Positions 2,213 to 60,185 of a stretch of DNA of 64,000 nucleotides are shown piece after piece. The position numbers and the translations under genes are program-made. This DNA is from Opitutia bacterium (GTDB lineage Bacteria > Verrucomicrobiota > Verrucomicrobiia > Opitutales > Opitutaceae), in assembly GCA_003142955.1 (NCBI GenBank), contig PLOH01000142.1:38308-102307 (forward strand), given 5' to 3'. Position 1 is the first letter of the stretch, and each line of letters starts with the position of its first letter. Below the pieces are notes generated by a model. That model did not search any database and was not told where the DNA came from. It was given only the letters and a program-made list of their open reading frames with translations.

Positions 2213-2476
2213 ATGGCTGATCAGAAGACCATCGAACAACGCGTTAAAGAAATTATCGTTAACCAGTTGAACGTTAACGAGGAACAGATCACCCCGGAAG
2301 CTTCTTTCCTTGATGATCTGGGCGCCGATTCGCTCGATACCGTCGAGCTGATTATGGCTTTTGAGGAGGAATTCAAGGATGAGATCAAAGGCGAGATCCC
2401 GGAGTCTGACGCCGAAAAGCTTCAGACGGTCGGCGATGTAATCGCCTATATCGAAGAAAAGTCTTCTTCGAAGTAA
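2213..2476 (+). CDS. acpP: Acyl carrier protein
   Basis: 87 aa with the phosphopantetheine site [19 protein letters not shown]. Confidence 0.97.
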
Positions 2477-2493
2477 TCATTTTTTCGGATTTT

Positions 2494-2543
2494 GGCGTCC
2501 TGCCGGGTGCCCCATCGGGACTTTTCGGTAGGGCGCCTTTTTT
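2494..2543 (+). terminator. Rho-independent terminator-like hairpin between acpP and fabF
   Basis: GGCGTCCTGCCG ... CGGTAGGGCGCC followed by TTTTTT; the stem pairs with two G-U wobbles. Confidence 0.7.
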
Positions 2544-2549
2544 GTACAC

Positions 2550-3803
2550 ATGGATTCTGCCCAGTCTGCTCCCCGGGTGGTCATCACCGGCCTCGGCGTT
2601 GTCAGCTCCCTCGGCCTGGACGTGGAAGATTTTTGGGCCAATATCCTGGCCGGCCGAAGCGGGATCAGTCGCCTGACGGGATTCGACGTAACGGATTATC
2701 CCTGCAAGATCGGGGCCGAGATTGTCGATTTCGACGCGGCGAAGCTCATGAATCCGAAGGAGGCGCGGCGGAACGACCGTTACACGCAGTTCGGTTTTGT
2801 GGCCGCCAAGGCGGCGGTGGCTGACGCTGGTCTGAATCCCGCGGCGGAAGACTCGGACCGCATGGGTGTGATCATTGGCTCGGGCATCGGCGGAATGCAC
2901 ACCTACGAGCAGCAACTCAGGGTGCTGTGGGAGCGCGGTCCGCGCAAAGTGTCGCCCTTTACGATCCCCTCTCTCATCAGCAACATGTGTTGCGGATTGG
3001 TTGCGATCGAACTGGGCGCGCGCGGTCCGAATTATGCGGTGGTGAGCGCTTGCGCGTCGGGCGCCCACGCGATTGGCGAAGCCTTCAACGCCATCCGGCG
3101 GGGCGAGACCGACGTCATGATTGCGGGCGGGAGCGAGGCGGCAATCACGCCTTTTTCCTACGCTTCGTTCTGCTCAATGAAGGCCATGAGCACGCGAAAC
3201 GAACAGCCGGAGAAGGCCTGCCGTCCGTTTGATCTCAACCGCGACGGTTTTATCATGGGAGAGGGTGCCGGCATCCTTGTGCTGGAGACGTTGGCCCATG
3301 CCCAGGCCCGCGGCGCCCGGATCTATTGCGAGCTGGCTGGCTACGGCGCCAGTTGCGATGCCTTTCACATCACTCAGCCCGACCCGGAGGGGCGTGGACT
3401 TTCGCTGGCGATGAAACGCGCAGTTGCGGTGGCCGGCGTGCACCCGGAGGAGATCGATTACATCAATGCGCATGGGACCTCGACACCGTACAACGACAAG
3501 TTCGAGACGCTGGCGATCAAACAGGTCTTCGGAGACCATGCGCGCAAGCTCATGGTGAGTTCGACCAAGTCGATGACGGGGCATCTGCTGGGCGCCGCCG
3601 GCGGGGTGGAGGCGCTCATCTGCGCCAAGGCGCTCCAGACGGGGGGAGTGCCGCCGACGATCAACTACGAGCAACCAGACCCCGAATGCGATCTTGACTA
3701 TGTGCCCAACGTCAAACGTTCGGCTCCGCTGCGCGTGGTGCTGAGCAACAATCTTGGTTTTGGCGGACAGAATGCGTCGCTCGTGCTCCGGCGGCTGGAA
3801 TAG
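2550..3803 (+). CDS. fabF: 3-oxoacyl-[ACP] synthase II FabF
   Basis: VVITGLGVVSSLG; active-site VVSACASGAHAIGEA; HGTSTPYND; STKSMTGHLLGAAGG. Confidence 0.96.
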   Translation: MDSAQSAPRVVITGLGVVSSLGLDVEDFWANILAGRSGISRLTGFDVTDYPCKIGAEIVDFDAAKLMNPKEARRNDRYTQFGFVAAKAAVADAGLNPAAEDSDRMGVIIGSGIGGMHTYEQQLRVLWERGPRKVSPFTIPSLISNMCCGLVAIELGARGPNYAVVSACASGAHAIGEAFNAIRRGETDVMIAGGSEAAITPFSYASFCSMKAMSTRNEQPEKACRPFDLNRDGFIMGEGAGILVLETLAHAQARGARIYCELAGYGASCDAFHITQPDPEGRGLSLAMKRAVAVAGVHPEEIDYINAHGTSTPYNDKFETLAIKQVFGDHARKLMVSSTKSMTGHLLGAAGGVEALICAKALQTGGVPPTINYEQPDPECDLDYVPNVKRSAPLRVVLSNNLGFGGQNASLVLRRLE

Positions 3804-3891
3804 CCGGGATCGCGGGCAAGCAAGTGGGCGGATGGAGTAGTAAGGCTTGTGCTCTCGGCTGAAAGGCCGTCTTGTTGGCCGCCTGATTCCC

Positions 3892-6228
3892 ATGAGCCGA
3901 CCTGTGCGATTATTGCAGGTAAATCGCGCCGCAGATGAGGCGGACAATATCGTCCGCTTGCTGGCCGCTGACGGATGGGAGGTCCATGCATTACGGATCG
4001 CGACCGCCGACGAGTTGTCCGCCGCGCTCGCCGGCCAGAGCTGGGACGTGGTGATTGCTGATTACAGCACGCTGTGTTCCGAGGTCGGCAATGCCCTGTT
4101 GCCGGTTTTGCAGACGAACTGGAGCATCCCGCTGGTCGTGATTTCCGATCAGGACAGGGTGGACCGGGCGGTTGAAATGATGCGGGCGGGGGCGAGAGAT
4201 TTCCTGGGCAAGGACAGCCTTTCCCTCCTGCCGGCGATCGTGTCCCGGGAGTTGGCAGAGGCCGGTGCGGGTCGGATGCTCACCCACGCAAAAGACATCG
4301 GGCCCAAGGGCGCGGAAGAGGAATTGCGCCGGAGCGAAGGCCGATACCGCACGCTTTTCGAGAACATGCTGAATGGATTTGCGCACTGCCGGATGCTGTT
4401 CGAAAACGGTCAACCGCGGGACTTCCTCTATCTGCATGTCAACCGGGCCTTCGCCCGGCTGACTGGATTGCGGGATGTCGTCGGGAAGAAAGTGTCCGAA
4501 GTCCTTCCCGGCCTTCGAGAGTCGCACCCGGAACTGTTCGAGATTTATGGGAGGGTGGCACTGACCGGGCAACCGGAGACATTGGAGACCTATGGGGAGG
4601 CTTTTGGCGGCTGGCTTTTCGTGACTGTCTACAGCACGGAGAAGGAGCATTTCACGGCGATTTTCGAGAACATCACGGAACGAAAGCAGGCGGAGAACGC
4701 GATCCGTGAAAGCGAACTGCGATTGCGCATGGCCCTCGACTCGGGTGCCATGGGAATTTGGGATCGGGATCCGCGTTTGGGAAATCTGCATTTGACCGAA
4801 CAGCTCATCCGGCTCCTGGGGCTGAAGGCCGGGAAGTTCGATGGTCGGTACGAGACCTTCCGGCGCCTCGTGCATCCGCAGGATGTGGCCGGTCTCGAGG
4901 CGGCGATCGCGCGGTCCCGTGATGCTCGAATCCCTTATCGGTACGCGTTTCGGGCGGTCTGGCCGGACAGCTCGATTCACTGGTTGGAAGGACGGGGCCA
5001 GTTCTTTTATGACTCCGCCGGTGTGCCAGTCCGGATGATGGGGGTTGCCGTTGATATCACGGAAACGAGGCGCATGGAGGACCAATTGAGGCAGGCGCAG
5101 AAGATGGAAGCGGTGGGCCAGCTCGCCGGCGGCGTGGCGCACGACTACAACAACATTCTGACGTCGACGCTGATGCACCTCGAGTTGATGATGCACGATT
5201 CGGGCTTGACGGCGCCCCTGCGGAATTCGCTGCAGGAACTGGAGGTCGAGACCCAGCGCGCGGTGGGATTGACCCGGCAATTGCTCATGTTCAGTCGCCG
5301 GCAGATCATCCAGGTGAAGCCCGTGGACCTGAATGACGTCGTGCGCGATTTGTTGAAGATGCTGCGACGGCTGCTCGGAGAGCACATTAGCCTGGAACTC
5401 CACAACGAAGGCCGCCGTCTGCGGATCGAGGCGGATCCAGGAATGGTCGAGCAGGTTGTCATCAACCTCTGTGTGAATTCACGCGACGCGATGATGCCGA
5501 ACGGCGGGCCGCTGACAATCGCGACCCGGCTGGTGGCGTTGGATGCCGATGCTGCCGCCGCCAACCCGGATGCGCGCGCCGGGAAGTTTGTCTGTCTTTC
5601 CGTCGCGGATACCGGTTGTGGCATGAATGGGGAGGTGATGAAGCGAATCTTCGAGCCCTTTTTCACCACGAAGGAGTCAGGGAAAGGCACGGGGTTGGGT
5701 TTGGCCACGGTCTACGCGATCGCAAAACAACACTCGGGCTGGGTCGAGGTGTCGAGCAAGGTGGGCAGCGGCACCACCTTTCGCGTCTATTTTCCGGAAA
5801 TGATCAAGGCGTCGACCGGCGAAACCCAGATGATCGATCCGCAGCAACTTCGCGGTGATGAAACGATCCTGATCGTGGAAGACGAGGCGGCGGTCCGGCG
5901 GATGGCGGTGATGAGTTTGCAGTGGTTCGGGTATCACGTCCTGGAGGCGGCCAATGGACCGGAGGCGTTGCGTCAGTGGGAACAGCACCGCGCCGAGATC
6001 GCCCTGCTGTTCACCGACATGGTGATGCCAGAGGGGATGACGGGACTTGATTTGGCCAAACAATTGCGCGAGGCCAACGGCAGCCTGAAGGTCATCATTT
6101 CAAGCGGCTACAGTGTTGACATCGCGAACTCGGGAATTCCCGCCGGGTCGGGAATCGCCTACCTCTCCAAGCCCTATGAAGTGAAGTCTTTGGTCGCAAT
6201 GGTACGGAAGTGTCTCGATCAGACCTGA
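3892..6228 (+). CDS. Hybrid histidine kinase (REC-like N-terminus, PAS domains, HisKA, HATPase, C-terminal REC)
   Basis: MEAVGQLAGGVAHDYNNIL H-box; GTGLGLATVYAIAKQHSG G-box; ETILIVEDEAAVRRM and FTDMVMPEGMTG receiver. Confidence 0.9.
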   Translation: MSRPVRLLQVNRAADEADNIVRLLAADGWEVHALRIATADELSAALAGQSWDVVIADYSTLCSEVGNALLPVLQTNWSIPLVVISDQDRVDRAVEMMRAGARDFLGKDSLSLLPAIVSRELAEAGAGRMLTHAKDIGPKGAEEELRRSEGRYRTLFENMLNGFAHCRMLFENGQPRDFLYLHVNRAFARLTGLRDVVGKKVSEVLPGLRESHPELFEIYGRVALTGQPETLETYGEAFGGWLFVTVYSTEKEHFTAIFENITERKQAENAIRESELRLRMALDSGAMGIWDRDPRLGNLHLTEQLIRLLGLKAGKFDGRYETFRRLVHPQDVAGLEAAIARSRDARIPYRYAFRAVWPDSSIHWLEGRGQFFYDSAGVPVRMMGVAVDITETRRMEDQLRQAQKMEAVGQLAGGVAHDYNNILTSTLMHLELMMHDSGLTAPLRNSLQELEVETQRAVGLTRQLLMFSRRQIIQVKPVDLNDVVRDLLKMLRRLLGEHISLELHNEGRRLRIEADPGMVEQVVINLCVNSRDAMMPNGGPLTIATRLVALDADAAAANPDARAGKFVCLSVADTGCGMNGEVMKRIFEPFFTTKESGKGTGLGLATVYAIAKQHSGWVEVSSKVGSGTTFRVYFPEMIKASTGETQMIDPQQLRGDETILIVEDEAAVRRMAVMSLQWFGYHVLEAANGPEALRQWEQHRAEIALLFTDMVMPEGMTGLDLAKQLREANGSLKVIISSGYSVDIANSGIPAGSGIAYLSKPYEVKSLVAMVRKCLDQT

Positions 6229-42229: not shown

Positions 42230-42348
42230 CTAGAGCGGTTTCAGAAAAAGTGTAGCTGCGAGCGCCAGCGAGTGGACGAACCATCCGCTCGCTGGCGCTC
42301 GCAGCTACTTTCGCGTTCTCGGCCACATTTCAATTTAAACCACTCTAG
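42230..42348. mobile_element. Nested palindromic MITE/REP-like element with 12-bp terminal inverted repeats
   Basis: Outer CTAGAGCGGTTT (42230-42241)/AAACCACTCTAG (42337-42348); inner GTAGCTGCGAGCGCCAGCGAGTGG (42252-42275)/CCGCTCGCTGGCGCTCGCAGCTAC (42285-42308). Confidence 0.82.
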
Positions 42349-49564: not shown

Positions 49565-49593
49565 AGCGGGCCGATGCCGCATTTGTGCAAATT

Positions 49594-49651
49594 GTAGGAG
49601 CGAGCTTGCTCGCGATTCCGAATGAAAAGTCGCCTGTAAGCAGGCTCCTAC
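49594..49651. repeat. REPIN-like doublet of the GTAGGAGC...GCGA family
   Basis: GTAGGAGCGAGCTTGCTCGCGA (49594-49615) and the reverse complement of 49630-49651, GTAGGAGCCTGCTTACAGGCGA; each half also folds on itself. Confidence 0.88.
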
Positions 49652-49706
49652 ACCGGTCACCCGATTGCCTCATTGTCCGGCACCCGTTCGACGCACGGAT
49701 TCCAAC

Positions 49707-55729: not shown

Positions 55730-56830
55730 ATGAAGAAAATCGTCATCGTCATCGCCGTTCTTGTGCTCGTCGCGATCGGGTGGTTTTTGCTGAAGCACCG
55801 CGGCGCTCCCGACACGGAGGAAGGCGCAGCGCCTGTCGCCACGGTCGAGACCGCGCGGTTAGAACAGCAGGACATCGTCCGAACGATCGAGGCATTTGGC
55901 GTGGTGGCGGCCGCGCCGTCCGGCGAACACGTGATTTCCGCGCCTTACGATTGCGTGATCCGGCAGGTTTTCGTTGGAACGGGCACGCCCGTCGCTGCCG
56001 GCGACGTGCTGATGGAGATCGCGTCGAGCGACGATGCCAGACTCGCCCTGGACTCCGCGCGCGGCGCGCTCGGGCTCGCGACCAAGACGCTCGCGGCAAC
56101 GCAGCAGCGCTACGACTTGAAACTGGCCACGAATCAGGACCTGCTCATGGCGCAGCAGACGGAGCAGGACGCGCGCCTGAAGGCCGCGAGCTACGAAGCG
56201 CGCGGAATCGGCGGGGAGGGCCGGATCACCGCGCCGGTGGCAGGCATCATCAGCAAACTGGAACTTACCGCGGGTGCGCTCGCCCCGCTTGGAACACCGT
56301 TGGTTTCGGTCGCCAACGGCGAGAAGCTGGAGGCGCGTCTCGGCATTGAACCCGCGAATTTGTCCTCGGTCGACGTGGGACGGCCGGTGGTGCTGATCTC
56401 GGCCAACCGGTCGGGGTCCACGCCGGTCTCTTCGACGGTGCGGAGTGTCGGCAAAGGCCTTGATCCCATGACGGGCGCCGCGGAAGTGCGCGTGCCAGTG
56501 CCCATGGGGGCTCCGTTGCTCCTGGGCGAACATGTGCAGGCGTCGGTCGAAGTGGAGAAAAAGGTGAAGGCGCTGGTGGCGCCGCGAAGCGCCGTGCTGC
56601 CCGACGGTGACATCCAAGTGCTCTTCATCGTCAAGAATGGCAAAGCCGTGCGGCATGAGGTGACACTCGGGATCGCGTCGGGCGACCGGGTGGAAGTGAC
56701 CGGCGCCGACCTCCACGCCGGGGACCTGGTGGTGACGCTCGGCAACTACGAACTGACCGATGGCATGGCGGTCCAACCGCAGGGGAAGAACGTGAAGGAA
56801 CCGCGAGGTTCCAGGGAGGGGAAGCCGTGA
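55730..56830 (+). CDS. RND efflux periplasmic adaptor subunit
   Basis: MKKIVIVIAVLVLVAIGWFLLKHRG; VISAPYDCVIRQVFVGTGTPVAAGDVLMEI; RITAPVAGIISKLELTAGALAPLGTPLVSVAN. Confidence 0.93.
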   Translation: MKKIVIVIAVLVLVAIGWFLLKHRGAPDTEEGAAPVATVETARLEQQDIVRTIEAFGVVAAAPSGEHVISAPYDCVIRQVFVGTGTPVAAGDVLMEIASSDDARLALDSARGALGLATKTLAATQQRYDLKLATNQDLLMAQQTEQDARLKAASYEARGIGGEGRITAPVAGIISKLELTAGALAPLGTPLVSVANGEKLEARLGIEPANLSSVDVGRPVVLISANRSGSTPVSSTVRSVGKGLDPMTGAAEVRVPVPMGAPLLLGEHVQASVEVEKKVKALVAPRSAVLPDGDIQVLFIVKNGKAVRHEVTLGIASGDRVEVTGADLHAGDLVVTLGNYELTDGMAVQPQGKNVKEPRGSREGKP

Positions 56831-59800
56831 ATTCCGTGGTCTGGGTTCAGGCTCACCGCCGGTCGGTCCTGTTCCTGCTGGCCTTGCTGGTGCTGGGCGG
56901 GATCGTTTCGACCTGGACTTTGCCGGTGGCATTGTTTCCTCAGGTCGATTTTCCACGGGTGGTGATCAGCGTCGATGCCGGCGACCGGCCGGCGGAGCGC
57001 ATGACCACCGAGGTCACGATGCCGGTCGAGGAAGCGGTGCGCGCGGTGCCGGGGTTGCGCAGCATCCGCTCCACGTCGAGTCGTGGCTCCGCGGACATCT
57101 CGGTGAATTTCGACTGGGGGCAGGACATGATTTCCGCGATGCTCCAGGTCGAGTCGGCAATCAACCAGGTGCTGCCCGCGCTGCCGGCCGGCACCACCTT
57201 TGACGTGCGCCGGATGGACCCCACGGTCTTTCCCACGATTGGCTATACGCTGACATCCTCCCAGCAGTCGCTCGTCGAGCTGCGCGACATTGCTTACTAT
57301 CAGCTGCGGCCGCTGCTCTCGACGGTTCCCGGAGTCGCCAAGGTAGCAGTGCTCGGCGGCGCCGAGGCGGAATACCGCGTCACGATCGATCCGGCGCGGC
57401 TCGAAGCTCACGGTCTCACCCTGGCCGATGTATCGAAGGCGCTGTCCGCGGCGAATTCCATCAGCGCGGTGGGCCGGCTCGAAGATCACTACAAACTCTA
57501 CCTTGCGCTCGTGGACAATCGCGTGGCGGATGCCGGGCAGCTCGGCGCCACCATCCTCCAGAAAGGACCGGCGGGCCTGGTGCGCGTCTCCGACATCGCC
57601 ACCGTGGCGCTCGACACCGCGCCCCAATGGATCCGCGTCAACGCCGACGGGAGGGACGCGGTGATCTTCCAGGTTTACCAGCAGCCCGATGCGAACACGG
57701 TGCAGATCGCCCGCGATGTGCAGGCGAAGCTGAAGGCCTACACGCCGCAGCTCCCCCGCGGCGTGACGATTGCGAACTGGTATGACCAGAGTGAGCTGAT
57801 TCTCGCCTCGGCGCGCAGTGTGCGCGACGCCGTTTTCGTCGGCGTGATCCTCGCCGGCGCGGTGCTGCTCCTGTTCCTGCGCAACGGCAAGATCACGCTC
57901 ATCGCGATGGCGTGCGTGCCGGCCACGCTTGCGGCGACGGTCCTGCTGCTCCGGTTGCTGAACAGCAGTTTCAACATCATGACGCTCGGCGGCATGGCGG
58001 CCGCGGTCGGCCTGATCATCGATGACGCGATCGTCATGGTGGAGCACGTGGTCCGCCGGTTGCGCGGCCGGTTGGGCGCAACTCACGGACTCGTCTGGGC
58101 CGCCGCCGCTGAATTCACGCGGCCGCTCATCGGGTCGTCGCTCTCCACGGTCATCGTCTTCGCGCCGCTGGCGTTTCTTTCCGGCGTGACCGGGGCGTTT
58201 TTCAAGGCGCTGTCGCTCACGATGGCGGCGGGCCTGGTGATTTCGTTTCTGATCGCGTGGCTCGCGGTGCCGATTCTTGCCGATCATTTCCTGGACGAGC
58301 AGGACGCCAATCAAAAGGAAGGCGGCCGATTCACCGCACGCGTCCACGGTGGCTACACCCGTCTGCTGCATCGCCTGCTCGCCCGTCCGTCGCTGGTGCT
58401 GTTCGGCGTGGTGCCCCTGCTGCTGGTCGCCTGGCTGTGTTACCGGAACGTCGGCTCCGGTTTCATGCCCTCGATGGATGAAGGCGGATTCATCCTCGAC
58501 TATCGCTCTGCGTCCGGCACCTCGCTGAGCGAGACGGACCGGCTCCTCCGGCAGGTCGAAGCGATCCTGCAGGCGACGCCCGAGGTCGAGACGTACTCGC
58601 GGCGGACCGGCCTGCAGCTTGGCGGCGCCGTGACCGAGGCGAATGAGGGCGACTATTTCATCCGGTTGAAGGCGCCGCCGCGCCGCCCGATCGACGAAGT
58701 CATCGACGATGTGCGCCGCCAGGTGGAGAACCGGGTGCCCGGACTCGAAATCGAGATGGCGCAGTTGATGGAGGACCTGATCGGCGACCTCACGGCCGTA
58801 CCGCAGCCGATCGAAGTGAAGCTCTTCTCGGATGACAGCGCGTTGTTGTCCTCGGTCGCGCCGGCGGTCGCCAAGGCCATCGGCCGGATTCCGGGCGTCG
58901 TGGATGTCAAGGACGGGATTGTTCTCGCCGGGGATGCGCTCATGATCGAGGTGGATCGGGCGAAAGCTGCGCTGGAGGGAATGGACCCCGACGCCGTCAC
59001 CGGGGCCGTTGATGCGTTGTTGAGCGGCGCCACCGCGACGACCAAAATCGAAAGCGGGCCGAAACTGATCGGCATCCGCGCCTGGATTCCCGGACGCGCA
59101 CGGCGCACCGCGGAGGACGCCGCGGCGCTGCGGCTGCGCGCGCCCGACGGACACTTCTTTCCGCTGCAACGCGTCGCCACGCTGGCGACCGTCACCGGCC
59201 AGCCGCAGATCGATCGGGACGACTTGAAACGGATGCTCGCCGTGACCGGCCGCATCAGTGGCCGCGATCTCGGCTCCACGATTCGCGACGTGCAGGCCGT
59301 GCTGAATCAACCCGGCCTCGTGCCGCGCGGGGTCTATTTCACGCTCGGGGGCACCTATGCGGAGCAACAAAAGGCGTTTACGGGCCTGATCGCGGTCTTC
59401 GCCGCGGCGGTGGCGCTCGTTTTCCTGCTCCTCCTGTTTCTCTACGAACGTTTCCGGACGGCGACGGCCATGCTCGCCACCACGCTGCTCGCGCTCTCCG
59501 CCGTGACGATCGGTCTGTGGCTCACGCACACCGAGCTGAACATCTCGTCGATGATGGGCATGACGATGATCGTCGGCATCGCGACGGAGGTGGCGATCTT
59601 CTACGTCTCCGAACTGGTTTCCCTGCCCGACGAGATCGCGCCGCACGAAGCGCTAGTGCAGGCCGGCATCAACCGCATGCGCCCGATTGCGATGACCACT
59701 TTTGCCGCCATTCTCGCCTTGCTTCCGTTGGCTCTGGGCATCGGCGCGGGCTCGGCGATGCAGCAGCCGCTCGCCATCGCGATCATTTCCGGGCTGATTC

Positions 59801-59898
59801 TGCAGATGCCGCTCGTCCTGGTTGTTCTGCCGGTGCTGCTGTCGCGGCGGTCCGGGCGCTTCGGCGGCGCTGCAACCCAAGGTGGCGCCGGTCTGTGA
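56827..59898 (+). CDS. RND efflux transporter permease
   Basis: 1023 aa; GTG start overlapping the upstream stop; SIRSTSSRGSADISVNFDWG; GGMAAAVGLIIDDAIVMVEHVVR; GMTMIVGIATEVAIFYVSE. Confidence 0.95.
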   Translation: MNSVVWVQAHRRSVLFLLALLVLGGIVSTWTLPVALFPQVDFPRVVISVDAGDRPAERMTTEVTMPVEEAVRAVPGLRSIRSTSSRGSADISVNFDWGQDMISAMLQVESAINQVLPALPAGTTFDVRRMDPTVFPTIGYTLTSSQQSLVELRDIAYYQLRPLLSTVPGVAKVAVLGGAEAEYRVTIDPARLEAHGLTLADVSKALSAANSISAVGRLEDHYKLYLALVDNRVADAGQLGATILQKGPAGLVRVSDIATVALDTAPQWIRVNADGRDAVIFQVYQQPDANTVQIARDVQAKLKAYTPQLPRGVTIANWYDQSELILASARSVRDAVFVGVILAGAVLLLFLRNGKITLIAMACVPATLAATVLLLRLLNSSFNIMTLGGMAAAVGLIIDDAIVMVEHVVRRLRGRLGATHGLVWAAAAEFTRPLIGSSLSTVIVFAPLAFLSGVTGAFFKALSLTMAAGLVISFLIAWLAVPILADHFLDEQDANQKEGGRFTARVHGGYTRLLHRLLARPSLVLFGVVPLLLVAWLCYRNVGSGFMPSMDEGGFILDYRSASGTSLSETDRLLRQVEAILQATPEVETYSRRTGLQLGGAVTEANEGDYFIRLKAPPRRPIDEVIDDVRRQVENRVPGLEIEMAQLMEDLIGDLTAVPQPIEVKLFSDDSALLSSVAPAVAKAIGRIPGVVDVKDGIVLAGDALMIEVDRAKAALEGMDPDAVTGAVDALLSGATATTKIESGPKLIGIRAWIPGRARRTAEDAAALRLRAPDGHFFPLQRVATLATVTGQPQIDRDDLKRMLAVTGRISGRDLGSTIRDVQAVLNQPGLVPRGVYFTLGGTYAEQQKAFTGLIAVFAAAVALVFLLLLFLYERFRTATAMLATTLLALSAVTIGLWLTHTELNISSMMGMTMIVGIATEVAIFYVSELVSLPDEIAPHEALVQAGINRMRPIAMTTFAAILALLPLALGIGAGSAMQQPLAIAIISGLILQMPLVLVVLPVLLSRRSGRFGGAATQGGAGL

Positions 59899-59932
59899 CC
59901 GGCGATTTCGCCAGTCGAAGACTGGCGCTACC
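59881..59932. repeat. REPIN-like doublet spanning the 3' ends of two convergent genes
   Basis: GGTGGCGCCGGTCTGTGACCGGCGA and reverse complement of the right half GGTAGCGCCAGTCTTCGACTGGCGA. Confidence 0.85.
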
Positions 59933-60185
59933 GGGGGCCGGCCCGCTCCCTGGCTTTCGCCTCGAGTTGGGCCCGCAGCACCACCCGGAACATCTGGAGC
60001 GCGAGCCAGAACAACGCCGCCAGGCACGACGCGGTGATGGCGGCCCAGAGCCAGATGAAGAACGGATCGTTCGAAGGCACGTGGGAGCGGAGAATCCAGG
60101 TGAAAAACACGAACACCGCCACAGTCAGGAGGGCGTCGAGCGCGAGCGGCGCGCGTCCAGCGGGCTTTTCTTTGGGCAGGTCCAT
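59928..60185 (-). CDS. Small two-TM membrane protein
   Basis: MDLPKEKPAGRAPLALDALLTVAVFVFFTWILRSHVPSNDPFFIWLWAAITASCLAALFWLALQMFRVVL. Confidence 0.6.
   Translation of the reverse strand: MDLPKEKPAGRAPLALDALLTVAVFVFFTWILRSHVPSNDPFFIWLWAAITASCLAALFWLALQMFRVVLRAQLEAKARERAGPR

Follow-up and report, generated by a model that had tools for sequence, protein, structure and literature searches.

A REP doublet holding the stop codons of two convergent genes in an Opitutia bacterium

GTAG-type REPs have been described in the PVC superphylum, in which Opitutus terrae is highly enriched for them (Di Nocera et al. 2013, PMC3733652). These repeats lie at the 3' ends of genes in convergent or tandem arrangement; in the genomes for which distances were plotted, those between convergent genes (conv-REPs) are mostly found no more than 20 bp from the 3' ends of the ORFs on both sides, and the HH dimers of O. 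terrae are 1–2 bp apart. The GTAG termini often supply a TAG stop codon, and stop donation by REPs has accordingly been in print since 2013 (PMC3733652). REPIN/RAYT systems are characterised by a tyrosine transposase gene with the repeat on both sides and by a genome-specific abundance of that repeat (Nunvar et al. 2010, PMC2817692; Bertels & Rainey 2011, PMC3116915). Here we describe a palindrome found between two convergent genes in a stretch of 64,000 nucleotides from an Opitutia bacterium (the window). It is very probably one copy of a GTAG-type REP doublet, or REPIN, with both stop codons as its by-products.

The doublet and its family

Positions 59881–59932 of the window (GGTGGCGCCGGTCTGTGACCGGCGATTTCGCCAGTCGAAGACTGGCGCTACC) read, in parts, as GGTGGCGCCGGTCTGTGACCGGCGA TT TCGCCAGTCGAAGACTGGCGCTACC. 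Read as reverse complement, the last 24 bases give a second version of the unit formed by the first 24, and the halves, as inverted copies of one REP, make up a REPIN-type doublet (Table 1). GTGG and GTAG heads stand beside a GC-rich imperfect palindrome with GCGCC..GGCG stems, the structure that defines a REP, and the two inverted REPs fold as one hairpin, the structure that defines a REPIN.

Table 1. Features of the window locus and of related elements elsewhere in the genome.
Feature	Position	Strand	Remarks
RND efflux permease gene, AcrB family	56827..59898	+	from the ORF listing; stop TGA 59896–59898 within left REP
Left-arm remnant of longer repeat	59862..59880	+	cggcggcgctgcaacccaa vs consensus CGGCAGAGCCGCAACCAAA
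Left REP unit	59881..59904	+	GTGG-head variant; loop TGT gives in-frame TGA
Spacer separating the two REP units	59905..59908
Right REP unit	59909..59932	-	GTAG head; its TAG (59930–59928) is the stop of the convergent gene
85-aa membrane-protein gene	59928..60185	-	conserved, no Pfam family; stop TAG (+ strand CTA 59928–59930) in GTAG head
RAYT-like gene, 233 aa	G000:C90:48492-49190		several units of the window REP on each side
MITE copies of about 311 bp	G000, C67:116247-116557, C26:129384-129694, C41:9504-9814, C77:146950-147256, C82:5884-6193		L240, L257, L261, L249, L250

The pattern GTRGCGCCNGTCNNNGACNGGCG has 59 exact matches in the 4.29-Mb genome while the reversed control pattern has none, so the REP unit is not a product of chance. 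Nor is the sequence unique in this genome, which would have counted against the earlier note. A slightly longer pattern, GGTNGCGCCNGTCNNNGACNGGCG, has 22 exact matches in the same genome. The 59 matches are dispersed over many contigs. By a crude gene call, copies are mostly intergenic, and most form tight inverted doublets. Each of 37 relatives holds between zero and two matches to GTRGCGCCNGTCNNNGACNGGCG.

The genome also encodes a RAYT-like protein, which matches Pfam Y1_Tnp above the cut-off and NCBIfam NF047646 (REP-associated tyrosine transposase) with 79.8 bits, just under the cut-off of 80. Its nearest homologues in the relatives are only about 30–37% identical; repeat and transposase thus go together in this genome. 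The repeat is a GTAG-type REP/RAYT system. The earlier note, made from the sequence alone, had proposed a non-autonomous, REPIN-like palindrome with the stop codons of two convergent genes inside it; the inverted doublet, its genomic family, the repeat-flanked RAYT-like gene and the positions of the TGA and CTA bear this out.

Like the published GTAG-type REP dimers (PMC3733652), the family has a GT(A/G)G head, a GC-rich imperfect palindrome and doublets with their heads outside, and the window doublet is found at the 3' ends of convergent genes. Unlike them, it has its own stem sequence and a spacer of a few bp, and at the window one stop is a loop TGA and both genes end in a single doublet. 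The repeat-flanked tyrosine transposase gene and the genome-specific abundance are shared with REPIN/RAYT systems (PMC2817692; PMC3116915), whereas many of the tight doublets here have conserved outer arms and some lie in an element bounded by terminal inverted repeats (TIRs).

Four further genes with Y1_Tnp are present in the genome. Within the window, inverted-repeat hairpins of different sequence with GTAG-like heads are seen at 42252–42308 and 49593–49652 (GTAGCTGCGAGCGCCAGCGAGTGGA; TGTAGGAGCGAGCTTGCTCGCGA). Sequences similar to these flank other loci, so that further REP families are likely to exist in the genome.

Folding of the doublet in RNA

The folding energy of the doublet as RNA is -41.3 kcal/mol on the + strand (z -6.8), a value that none of 200 shuffles equalled, and -35.1 kcal/mol on the - strand (z about -7). 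Stability of this order on both strands, at a site between convergent 3' ends, would suit a bidirectional terminator, a role that the earlier note had thought probable. On neither strand, however, is there a T-run close enough behind the hairpin to qualify, and a terminator scan was negative at 59881–59932. An intrinsic bidirectional terminator is thus unsupported, and this candidate was ruled out by the missing U-tract. Other copies of the family, moreover, adjoin gene starts or lie inside genes, and it is unlikely that the doublet acts as a terminator for the two genes and has been retained for that role.

Other effects on the RNA can be envisaged. REPs can stabilise mRNA 3' ends. REPs of E. 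coli that lie 15 nt or less from a stop codon have been reported to stall ribosomes and lower translation (work cited in PMC12306157). Compared with the stop-proximal REPs of E. coli as they are summarised there, the window differs in having its stop codon inside the hairpin. By analogy, the window hairpin may shield the 3' end of the mRNA or delay ribosomes at termination.

Nesting in a TIR-type element

The doublet at the window is not the whole of the repeat. In a genome-wide DNA match, positions 23–92 of a family consensus built from the longest repeat copies match 59862–59931 at 89%. The match includes a short remnant of a left arm, in which 15 of 19 bases agree with the consensus, a score equalled by only 0.5% of shuffled flanks. 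A similar arm (CGGCAGAGCCGCAACCAAA) adjoins many other copies of the doublet. A search of the window copy for the longer unit's right arm found none, and no TIR remains there.

Many doublets sit in a unit of about 146 bp nested in a TIR-type MITE. This MITE-like family is about 311 bp long and has CTAGCCCGSATRTTTC terminal inverted repeats, of which 42 are found in the genome at two mismatches or fewer, against none for the control. At two loci (L209 and L210, the places of L004 and L018), the REP-bearing unit of about 146 bp interrupts the 311-bp MITE near one terminus, forming a composite of 457 bp; copies of 311 bp that lack the unit are found elsewhere in the genome. Since the doublet is nested in a TIR-bounded element, it may also travel in this genome as a passenger of that element.

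This arrangement bears on the origin of the window copy. The left-arm remnant is consistent with a decayed remnant of the 146-bp unit, moved by TIR-mediated transposition and not by the RAYT; so are three loci (L209–L211) in which the doublet occupies one and the same internal position of the TIR-bounded element, alongside the 311-bp copies that have no doublet. Yet the window copy lacks both TIR and right arm, and the doublets around the RAYT gene have no outer arms. The left arm alone does not tell the two routes apart. That REPs spread here by two systems, RAYT and TIR transposase, with the window copy a decayed product of the second, is accordingly offered as a tentative possibility.

The ends of the MITE can themselves coincide with the ends of genes. 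At L005:1461-1463, L019:1461-1463 and L027:1590-1592, a neighbouring gene takes its TAG stop from the CTAG of the terminal repeat; the genes encode, respectively, a protein resembling methionyl-tRNA synthetase, a secretin and a protein resembling DXP synthase. At L008, a TGA is found at the place of this TAG.

Gene ends and the double stop

The plus-strand gene encodes an RND permease (PF00873 ACR_tran, E 2e-209). Positions 59862–59880 and 59881–59895 together encode the residues GGAATQGGAGL. The earlier note had assigned only the last five of these, GGAGL, to the repeat; the tail is indeed repeat, but because the consensus match begins at 59862 this estimate was too narrow, and the last 11 or so residues of the permease are probably repeat-derived. 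Opitutaceae-type homologues (71–84% identity) have unrelated tails extending some 4–18 residues past a conserved LPVLLS-like motif, and the window permease extends 17 residues past it; by this comparison of proteins, the repeat-derived tail falls in a non-conserved region.

The small convergent gene is present in 31 of the 38 genomes searched, its own included, and is therefore a real conserved gene. Apart from the stop codon, the repeat contributes to it only two bases of the final Arg codon. Its same-genus orthologues encode proteins of 79–91 aa with unrelated tails and no repeat, a range that takes in the 85 aa of the window protein. The idea that the repeat rewrites two C-termini is thus not supported: the permease has a tail from the repeat, in a non-conserved region, but the small protein gains only a stop. 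The C-terminal tails of both genes look unconstrained.

The native stops of the orthologues fall nearby, as they would if both genes had natively ended here and the repeat overlay pre-existing stops. In that case, however, a coincidence would be required on both sides, as the TAG belongs to the GTAG head and the TGA to the loop, and this explanation is very improbable. The permease gene and the small gene were found side by side in no relative, with or without the repeat. The small gene occurs in four of five same-genus relatives, in none with the RND gene beside it; the genus yielded no close RND homologue (E<1e-60), and the small gene was near permease homologues at none of 80 loci from other genomes. 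As no repeat-free relative with the gene pair was found, the insertion is deduced from the structure of the family and not seen directly.

We infer the following course of events for the doublet as a by-product-bearing REPIN copy. The RAYT at G000:C90 would probably have mobilised the REP doublet family as it multiplied in this genome, and a doublet would have inserted, or persisted, in the short interval separating the convergent genes, where an insertion would do little harm because C-terminal tails tolerate variation. As a result, the frame of the permease passes through about 19 nt of the left arm of the repeat into the left REP and stops at the loop TGA; the opposite frame stops at the TAG in the GTAG head of the right REP. 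The stops would be set by which reading frame meets the repeat, with no specialised gene-end device, and a very stable hairpin would form in the RNA directly at the stop codons.

How often a frame is stopped in this way was estimated from 40 doublet strands in all three frames. A stop is met inside the doublet in 29% of frames (24 head TAG, 10 loop TGA and one elsewhere), compared with 33% for shuffled 52-mers of the same composition; an enrichment of stops in the repeat was therefore rejected. In a survey of about 32 REP loci, with genes taken from a crude codon-usage caller, a stop lies within the REP core at two: at L002, one gene ends at a head TAG; the window locus, alone among those surveyed, has the stops of two genes in its repeat. 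The gene-end remodelling suggested by the earlier note is thus not general. Two stops in one doublet are a rare but expected coincidence at convergent junctions.

REPs are also found within reading frames. At L048:3036-3100, a REP pair lies in frame within an RlmD/RumA-like 23S rRNA uracil methyltransferase gene (ORF 2418-4190, - strand), flanked by segments that can be aligned to E. coli RumA, and resembles the intragenic REPs reported in O. terrae. A further long ORF contains a REP doublet at L047:3016-3074, downstream of its GH20 domain. L010, L016 and L041 were not counted as intragenic, because known domains begin downstream of the repeat; here the crude caller had stretched the 5' ends of ORFs across the REPs.

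The window locus shows behaviour familiar from such repeats and, the double stop aside, is ordinary; it adds an Opitutaceae-like case to a pattern already described. The REP doublet nested in a TIR-bounded element is the more useful by-product of the analysis, as it bears on how REPs disperse. The locus itself illustrates cleanly how a selfish hairpin repeat is tolerated at gene ends, where it gives stops to both neighbours.
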